This document shows, in pieces, positions 38,073-39,700 of a stretch of 39,700 bases of DNA. The notes below the pieces were generated by a model, which searched no databases, was not told the origin of the DNA, and saw nothing but the letters and a program-made list of their open reading frames with translations. Location: positions 1 through 39,700 of the forward strand of contig CAJOQK010000014.1 of the NCBI GenBank assembly GCA_905236885.1, written 5' to 3'. Every line of letters begins with the position of its first letter. Positions within the stretch are counted from its first letter, which is position 1. The position numbers were made by a program, and so were the translations under genes. Source of the stretch: an uncultured Bacteroidales bacterium (GTDB taxonomy: Bacteria; Bacteroidota; Bacteroidia; Bacteroidales; WCHB1-69).

Positions 38073-38804
38073 ATGGAAAGTTTAATTAATCCTCCTGTTA
38101 AGATAGCTTTGTTCCAACTGAAATTCAGTGCAGTTAATATCAAAAGTTTTAGTGAAACAGATGTGTTGCTCAAACACAAGTTTTCCATTCGTAAAGACAA
38201 TATCGAAGTAGGTCTGAATCTGTATAATACGACTATACCTTTAGGCAAGTCACCATTAAAAGGAACGTCTGACGCAAAGATAAAGAGCTATATTTATTTG
38301 ACTCCAGATCAAAAGGAAAGAGTTGAAATCCTTGAGGATACATTAACCTATGTTAGTGAGTTACCTTACCATGGATGGGAAAATTTTGTAGCACAGGTCG
38401 AAAGCGTGTTGTCTATCATGTCTAATGTTCTTGGTAACGTGGAAATATGGAGAACTTCCATACGTTTTGTAAACCGTTTTCTGCTTGATGAGTTTGAAAC
38501 GCCTGACGAATATTTCACAACTCTTATTTCAAAAAAAGGAGATTCATTATATCCTTTAAGTCAATATGGTTTCCGACTTCAGTATGAAGTGCCTCAAACT
38601 AATGTTTACGCTATAGTGAATCAATCTGTTGAAAAGGACTTTTCAAACAAATATATTTATCTATTGGATATAGATGTTCTAAACAAACAGTCTCTTTATT
38701 ACGAAAAGGAGACAATTCTGTCCAGCATGTCAAATTTAAGGGAAATAAAGAATAAGATTTTCTTTGACTCAATAACTGAAAAAACCAAAGCTTTATGCAA
38801 TTAA
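38073..38804 (+). CDS. TIGR04255-like family protein
   Basis: A 243-residue soluble protein from ATG 38073 (MESLINPPVKIALFQLKF); a TTG reading from 38019 adds 18 residues. The opening NPPVKIALFQLKF and the ending IKNKIFFDSITEKTKALCN fit TIGR04255, a sporadic family whose members start with a PP-[IVL]-x-EA/xxLxF strand and end with an F(E/D)xxITExT/(K) helix. The middle (VEIWRTSIRFVNRFLL, YGFRLQYEVPQ) is also family-like. Function is unknown; members are patchily distributed and often in accessory regions. The gene is visibly richer in A+T than ugd and overlaps the next gene by 10 bp, so it begins a three-gene cassette. Confidence 0.65.
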   Translation: MESLINPPVKIALFQLKFSAVNIKSFSETDVLLKHKFSIRKDNIEVGLNLYNTTIPLGKSPLKGTSDAKIKSYIYLTPDQKERVEILEDTLTYVSELPYHGWENFVAQVESVLSIMSNVLGNVEIWRTSIRFVNRFLLDEFETPDEYFTTLISKKGDSLYPLSQYGFRLQYEVPQTNVYAIVNQSVEKDFSNKYIYLLDIDVLNKQSLYYEKETILSSMSNLREIKNKIFFDSITEKTKALCN

Positions 38805-39244
38805 CCCAGATGTCAGTAATATTAAAACCGGTCACATTGTCTATAGGGATGGCTGCCGCTATGCCGGTGTATGCTGCTGTTGATAGTTATAGCGGCATAT
38901 ATTCAGTTATTACCGACAAGGCTATCTATAAATCTGTGAAACAAGCCGATTCCGAGAATTTTTTAGCTTACATTCCTAAATTGAGGTTTCAGTCGTTATA
39001 CGAGCAGTGGCGCAACGATACCCGTTTTACATCATCAGCCAGTGATATTGTGAATAACGAGGCTTTCAAAGCCATTGTGGCGATGGGCGAAGCAGCTGTG
39101 CCATATATTGTGGAGGAAATCGACAACACTCCTTCCACTTTGGTTTGGGCATTGAATTTCATATATCAGAAGAAAATATCAAACAATCCAGACACAACTG
39201 TTCAAGAAGCTTGCAGGTTATGGGTGAAAGAGTTGAGCAGATAA
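38795..39244 (+). CDS. Small protein with WRNDTRF / AVPYIVEEI pattern (companion of downstream gene)
   Basis: A 149-residue protein. Residues ~55-149 follow a recurring pattern I recall from a small widespread family: FQSLYEQWRNDTRFTSSASDIVNNEAFKAIVAMGEAAVPYIVEEID ... WALNFI ... W. Members I recall read WRxETxFLSS...HPAYxxIIxxGxxALPLILxEL and are often next to NCIAWA-type proteins. The N-terminal ~30 residues (ILKPVTLSIGMAAAMPVYAAV) are hydrophobic and could be a signal or membrane segment, or the true start may be further in. It overlaps the upstream gene by 10 bp and the downstream gene by 25 bp in different frames, a sign of tight coupling. Function unknown. Confidence 0.65.
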   Translation: MQLTQMSVILKPVTLSIGMAAAMPVYAAVDSYSGIYSVITDKAIYKSVKQADSENFLAYIPKLRFQSLYEQWRNDTRFTSSASDIVNNEAFKAIVAMGEAAVPYIVEEIDNTPSTLVWALNFIYQKKISNNPDTTVQEACRLWVKELSR

Positions 39245-39700
39245 AGAAGGAGTTGAAAGGTTGTTTCCCCAAGCTTAAAACTGACAAAAAGTTTGATATA
39301 ACCAGCAAGGCGACGTCCATATATAATTGTATTGCATGGGCTTATGGTATAAACAATCGATGGATGTGGCCTAACACTGGCGACTATCCCTTTCTTGACG
39401 GGGTGCACTATTGGCCGAGTGATGAAATACAGGAACCTTCTGTTGAGAATTTCATAAAAGCCTTTCAACAAAAAGGATATGAATGCTGTGACAATGGTGA
39501 TTTTGAAGAAAACTATCAGAAAATAGCATTATATGCTAAGCCCGATAATTGGAATATTTGTACACATGCTGCACGGCAAAAACGTGATGGCACTTGGACT
39601 AGTAAACTGGGATGTGAATGTGATATACAGCACGGAACAGCTTACTCCATTGAGAACAATGGTTATGGCAAAGTGAGGTGCTTTATGAAAAGATTGTTCA
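39220..39700 (+). CDS. Papain-fold-like NCIAWA/THAAR protein, partial (3' end off window)
   Basis: From ATG 39220, 160 codons are open to the window edge. The pattern is YNCIAWAYG with Cys37, then RWMWP, YWP, a variable middle ending KIALYAK, ICTHAARQKRDGTWTSKLG with His116, and CDIQH with His138, then YGKVRCFMKR. I recall this NCIAWA ... HAARQ ... WTSKLG ... DIxH layout as a domain of unknown function (DUF7689-like) with a likely cysteine-peptidase/amidase (NlpC/P60-like) active site; the Cys-His-His assignment is inference. It overlaps the preceding small gene by 25 bp. Only the last few residues appear to be missing. Base composition is AT-rich, like the other two cassette genes. Confidence 0.65.
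   Translation, partial: MGERVEQIKKELKGCFPKLKTDKKFDITSKATSIYNCIAWAYGINNRWMWPNTGDYPFLDGVHYWPSDEIQEPSVENFIKAFQQKGYECCDNGDFEENYQKIALYAKPDNWNICTHAARQKRDGTWTSKLGCECDIQHGTAYSIENNGYGKVRCFMKRLF

Follow-up and report, generated by a model that had tools for sequence, protein, structure and literature searches.

Among described systems, the closest to the locus reported here are the TAC systems, such as Mtb HigBA-SecB(TA) and CmdTAC (PMC5105189, PMC11618068). Like them, it has three small genes side by side, a third component found with several toxin families, and a middle protein whose extension is variable and non-homologous. TAC addiction segments are movable, also act N-terminally and have no mutual similarity (PMC5105189). 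The chaperone can also be a phage sensor: in CmdTAC, CmdC senses a capsid protein (PMC11618068). The locus differs from these systems in that its TIGR04255 family protein (243 aa, predicted TBP-like fold) shows no sequence relation to SecB and is encoded by the first gene, whereas the TAC chaperone gene is the last. Furthermore, the extension is N-terminal here and C-terminal in TAC, and the effector is a predicted papain-fold protein, not a ribonuclease or ADP-ribosyltransferase. Because TIGR04255 shows no such relation to SecB, the trio is not a TAC system as defined.

The locus also resembles type II toxin-antitoxin (TA) systems (PemK/MazF, zeta, HEPN, Phd/YefM). The likeness extends to antitoxin-toxin order, gene overlap, sporadic distribution and decayed copies, and to the Phd- or RHH-like N-termini of some relatives of the middle gene, although the middle gene of the locus itself has no recognised DNA-binding domain. 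Genes 1 and 3 are clear members of TIGR04255 and DUF7689 (PF24738), respectively, and neither family name carries a function. In the literature searched, with preprints and most subscription journals outside its scope, we found no papain-fold type II toxin described, and no mention of TIGR04255, DUF7689, PF24738, DUF6941 or PF22091. To our knowledge, there is no example of a papain-fold cysteine hydrolase acting as a type II-like intracellular toxin.

We propose, with confidence that is evenly balanced, that the trio is a tripartite TA module working like TAC systems, in which gene 3 would be the toxin, gene 2 the antitoxin and TIGR04255 a chaperone or sensor. This is the best-supported explanation. 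It draws on the order of the genes, the exchange of partners, the link to known TA toxins, the antitoxin-type fusions of gene 2 and the pattern of decay; what we infer for the trio is its toxicity and neutralisation, the action of a chaperone, the trigger and the target. If it is true, two widespread unnamed families would gain a function at once, the TAC principle would reach beyond SecB, and a protease-type toxin would join the intracellular TA systems.

Layout of the three-gene locus

The window analysed is one entire 39,700-base contig from the phylum Bacteroidota, and the locus occupies its right end on the + strand. Gene 1 (38073..38804) encodes the TIGR04255 protein, the proposed chaperone-like or sensor part; its family, suspected in a preliminary description of this DNA, is borne out by NCBIfam TIGR04255 (E 1.4e-21, residues 6-240, 77.4 bits against a cut-off of 30, positions 4-249/252). 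Gene 2 (38795..39244, 149 aa), the proposed antitoxin, has no curated family assigned. Its variable N-terminal extension (residues 1-61, 38795..38977) lies outside the gene 2 profile and contains a hydrophobic, signal-peptide-like stretch, while its conserved core (residues 62-149, 38978..39241) is matched by the profile and may be the toxin-binding domain. Gene 3 (39220..39699, 160 residues in the window) encodes the DUF7689 protein (Pfam PF24738, E 4.4e-37, 127.8 bits against a gathering cut-off of 22.6, positions 2-118/118), the proposed toxin hydrolase. It is truncated, because the window ends where the contig ends; judged from the closest relative found (L022, 78% identical), about one residue and the stop codon are lost.

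The ORF coordinates agree with the overlaps described earlier: genes 1 and 2 share 10 bp (38795-38804) and genes 2 and 3 share 25 bp (39220-39244), each time in different frames. The AT-richness that had been noted relative to the preceding ugd is likewise seen, with a GC content of 0.34 in gene 1 and 0.34-0.42 in the rest of the cassette against 0.52-0.53 in ugd. Each of the three genes has one copy in the genome, and there is no tRNA in the final 9.7 kb of the window.

Conservation of gene 2 and DUF7689

Gene 2 and DUF7689 form a conserved pair. Profile-guided scans yielded 80 loci in public genomes and 19 in viral contigs with a DUF7689 relative; all loci were re-searched with profiles of all three proteins, and 114 loci were counted. 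In 107 of the 114, gene 2 immediately precedes DUF7689 on the same strand, which is the conserved adjacent pair expected of type II TA systems. TIGR04255 precedes the pair in 44 loci (in 42 of these at 448-520 nt before the DUF7689 domain), a share that may be inflated because the loci are the top of a similarity ranking; in 7 of the 107, the upstream sequence was too short to judge. The loci represent at least 18 named phyla, and phylum requires 32 changes on the DUF7689 tree, which is built from few columns. Because this gene order recurs so often, with TIGR04255 ahead of it in 44 loci, the cassette is beyond chance. It is a real two- or three-component module, recurrent across many phyla. 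The preliminary description had proposed such a module and given genes 2 and 3 as frequent neighbours in other phyla, and both claims hold.

The distribution within the phylum is sparse. A census of 395 genomes found DUF7689 in 12 and gene 2 in 8. All seven solid gene 2 matches, the window included, are in a contig with a DUF7689 copy, although in one damaged locus the two are ~1 kb apart; the eighth match (E 8.5e-4, within a 970-residue frame) is doubtful. In the family, 3 of 104 genomes have a DUF7689 match, again counting the window, and the three congeners searched have none. A single-sequence search with gene 2 against genome contigs and plasmids returned nothing, so its relatives could be found only with profiles. 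The core of gene 2 spans ~88 residues, of which S80 and W143 are invariant in 74 sequences.

DUF7689 is a putative papain-like cysteine hydrolase with a predicted Cys37/His116 site. The preliminary description had placed a candidate hydrolase site at Cys37 in YNCIAWA, His116 in THAAR and His138 in DIQH, and these residues are found as it gave them. Cys37 (39328..39330), the predicted nucleophile, and His116 (39565..39567), the predicted catalytic His, are invariant in all 83 aligned DUF7689 proteins, as are Ser128 and Lys129 (39601..39606) and Tyr149. One of the search patterns contained Cys37; the 21 of 83 rows without that pattern therefore provide an unbiased control, and all 21 keep both Cys37 and His116. 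D135 and H138 of the D135-I-Q-H138 motif (39622..39633) are each present in 82 of 83. Ser128 is one candidate for the third catalytic residue, and D135 or H138 is the other; the Ser128-Lys129 position may instead be a binding site.

The predicted structure points in the same direction. In the AlphaFold2 model of gene 3 (pLDDT 93.0), Cys37 begins helix 37-42 and His116 lies in strand 110-120. Foldseek and VIA-align rows for this model are nearly all papain-superfamily hydrolases, including AvrPphB (Z 5.8, rmsd 3.7, 122 aligned), NlpC/P60, staphopain, CHAP, Tse1 and two papain-like toxins; a CdiA-CT and a papain-like toxin/immunity pair are among these rows. Like the NlpC/P60, C58 AvrPphB-like and CdiA-CT papain-like toxin members of this superfamily, DUF7689 is predicted to have a Cys starting a helix and a His in a strand. 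The likeness is one of predicted fold only; a sequence search of solved structures gave no credible match for gene 1, 2 or 3. A papain-like fold is likely but not proven, because all Z-scores are modest (<6), and we count these modest scores against the TAC-like model. Three outcomes had been set beforehand as contrary to the preliminary description (no co-localisation, unconserved Cys37/His116, and no papain/NlpC-like fold in structure prediction); none of the three was seen in the loci, alignments and model.

The searches also gave two distant DUF7689 relatives. One lies in a 698-residue frame and looks secreted and multidomain, and the other is a solitary paralogue.

Partners of gene 2 and of TIGR04255

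The gene upstream of the pair varies. Over half of the pairs are without TIGR04255, which is therefore not essential to the pair, and this counts against the TAC-like model; on the DUF7689 tree, TIGR04255 presence requires 15 changes. Its place is taken by a DUF6941 protein in one locus (with a similar one in another), by a ‘YIKSN’ family of 110-130 aa in six loci, by a ‘RVLTDIRP’ family of 225 aa in seven, and by an 87-aa family in three. The pairs compared between these substitutes and SecB or TIGR04255 showed no sequence relation. A further ~30 loci have no recognised upstream partner. In other loci, a Phd- or RHH-type front on gene 2 itself can stand in for TIGR04255. Gene 2 relatives thus differ at their N-termini: one is Phd_YefM-like (E 8e-4) and one RHH-like (RHH_1, E 0.015), both below the Pfam cut-off, and a relative on an IMG/VR contig (L108:5127-5957) has sigma-70 region 2 fused in front (Pfam E 1e-10).

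The N-terminal extension of gene 2 is a candidate TIGR04255-dependent, chaperone-addiction-like segment, as judged from sequence comparison. The hydrophobic 15-mer of gene 2 has a median of 1.54 in Bacteroidota TIGR04255 modules vs 0.73 in gene 2 without TIGR04255 (P 5e-8). A hydrophobic, signal-like stretch is also present in unrelated second genes of five loci; in two of these (L155 and L157) it starts 44 and 29 residues in and is thus not a normal signal. Two more loci have an unrelated second gene with the N-terminal motif [GA][VIM][SG]x[DE][SA], common to gene 2 of DUF7689 modules, although the test is modest (P 0.001 vs other ORFs, 0.014 vs shuffles), and the TIGR04255 genes of these two loci are placed in the same region of the TIGR04255 tree as those of DUF7689 modules. 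In gene 2 of other phyla, the extension does not resemble a signal. We rejected the idea that a hydrophobic addiction segment is a general feature, since genes following TIGR04255 overall give P 0.26; we count this, too, against the TAC-like model.

A signal-like N-terminus invites a reading in which gene 2 would be exported, the trio would be a secreted or polymorphic-toxin effector with its immunity protein, and TIGR04255 would serve as a secretion chaperone. We consider this very unlikely. It would account for the N-termini in Bacteroidota, for the lipoprotein fusions on plasmids described below and for the predicted fold, which resembles those of CdiA-CT and type VI effectors. It sits poorly with the DUF7689 protein of the window, which has no evident signal peptide or delivery domain, with the extensions of other phyla and with the internal position of the stretch in L155 and L157.

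TIGR04255 is a promiscuous first gene. Searches for it alone found it in 24 of 395 genomes from the phylum and in 17 of 393 from the order, usually followed by a small second gene that overlaps or abuts it and by a third gene. Gene 2 and DUF7689 fill these positions only in the window and two other TIGR04255 loci of these searches. Elsewhere, the operon ends in PemK/MazF (PF02452, E 1e-14; similar in four further loci) or in a HEPN-like protein (PF05168, E 0.004; PADLOC HEPN_IX, 5e-6), and on the Vibrio parahaemolyticus plasmid CP063527 (L165:158-2105) TIGR04255, a 179-aa unnamed protein and a zeta toxin (PF06414, E 3e-12) stand in a row. The middle genes of the PemK/MazF, zeta and HEPN-like operons are unrelated to gene 2. 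On the TIGR04255 tree, the DUF7689 label requires 6 changes, and well-supported branches force at least 2 of these. Several unrelated toxin families thus have a third component in common, and the presence of TIGR04255 as first gene of operons with PemK, zeta and HEPN-like proteins suggests a role like that in TAC systems.

The lack of a sequence relation between TIGR04255 and SecB counts against the TAC-like model. By hhalign, the probability is 0.1, against three SecB-like sequences only. The AlphaFold2 model of gene 1 (pLDDT 91.1) gives TBP-like and guanidino-kinase-like fold rows (Z ~7-8); SecB is absent from these rows, with which a distant relation is still compatible. There is no SecB in the genome of the window. 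A related genome has a HigB-HigA-SecB-type arrangement (L174:1471-2651; classical TAC, by inspection), and both module types therefore occur in the phylum.

Taken together, the conserved operon, the invariant Cys and His, the predicted papain fold, the interchange of both upstream partners and effectors, and the decay pattern described below count for the TAC-like model. DUF7689 would be a papain-fold cysteine hydrolase of the cytoplasm, harmful in its free form, and the conserved core of gene 2 would bind and restrain it. The variable extension of gene 2 would impose dependence on TIGR04255, which would be made first, from overlapping and probably coupled genes, and would keep gene 2 soluble and undegraded. 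If TIGR04255 disappeared or were sequestered (a phage protein might do this, as in CmdTAC), gene 2 would be degraded and DUF7689 would cleave its target.

A broader version of this proposal is more tentative and falls somewhat short of an even chance. TIGR04255 might be a new class of chaperone or sensor, distinct from SecB, at the head of a large combinatorial network of three-part TA modules with PemK, zeta, HEPN-like proteins, DUF7689 or one of several unnamed effectors. DUF7689 would then be a papain-fold type II-like intracellular toxin, and at least four further families of small proteins could substitute for TIGR04255. Such a combinatorial set would suit swaps, as one gene 2-DUF7689 pair occurs with several upstream partners and the TIGR04255 family with several toxins.

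Two further groups of TIGR04255 loci have third genes of other kinds. One family, in six loci, has QGD and SNTCD/SQACDI motifs and no Pfam name and is a candidate effector; in five loci, the second gene after TIGR04255 is HEAT-repeat-like, and the third is unnamed and has an SFWR motif.

Decay, neighbours and mobility

Broken copies fit a toxin role for DUF7689, whose toxicity we infer. Three loci have an interrupted DUF7689 and an intact gene 2 core. In another three, gene 2 is gone and the DUF7689 frame has lost its Cys-bearing part, with Cys or Tyr replacing His; these counts are small, and two of the latter loci are near-identical. The reverse, an intact DUF7689 beside a broken gene 2, was seen in no locus. 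In one locus (L007), DUF7689 is intact with both Cys and His and gene 2 is absent, which counts against the TAC-like model.

The solitary DUF7689 of L007 would be expected if the protein were a non-toxic processing enzyme or cross-linker, with gene 2 as its substrate, activator or folding partner, as would the single-chain lipoprotein fusions on plasmids. This explanation is distinctly unlikely: the distribution of DUF7689 is sporadic, not that of a housekeeping gene, its remnants without gene 2 lack both catalytic residues, and TIGR04255 links it to TA toxins. A toxin with its partner, one of the options in the preliminary description, stays the best reading.

The neighbourhood gives little sign of a defence system, the other role that had been suggested. 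None of the three proteins matched a PADLOC model at E values up to 1, and the families listed among 113 neighbours are mostly ordinary genes, with 3 type II methyltransferases and 2 type I specificity subunits. We do not claim defence-island enrichment, as these counts stand without a control set. The trio might nevertheless provide immunity and have no labile antitoxin of the classical kind: an invader would be sensed by TIGR04255 or its substitute, gene 2 would be the adaptor, and complex formation would activate DUF7689 as a protease that cleaves a target. A constant gene 2 and DUF7689 behind a varying upstream gene is what interchangeable sensors would produce, and the sporadic spread over at least 18 phyla and the few restriction-modification neighbours are in keeping with it. 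We regard it as unlikely, given the PADLOC result, the ordinary neighbours, the company that TIGR04255 keeps with known TA toxins and the antitoxin-type fusions of gene 2. The first interpretation is partly supported: its module, adjacency, invariant Cys/His and predicted fold are borne out, a defence role finds little support, and mobility holds only in part.

Mobility is suggested by the very sporadic distribution and by two IMG/VR contigs, where the genes immediately before the trio are phage portal and minor-head genes in one and a terminase gene in the other; the plasmid and phage collections searched did not contain the trio. On small and conjugative Bacteroides/Phocaeicola plasmids (L018:72-1058 and L019:7848-8846), a single chain carries both DUF7689 and the gene 2 domain, with their order reversed. 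These fusions have a lipoprotein-like signal in front, and as putative lipoproteins they are at odds with a cytoplasmic toxin, a point against the TAC-like model. The fused form was not found in the viral contigs searched. In L019, a MAC/perforin-domain gene is located two genes downstream of the fusion.
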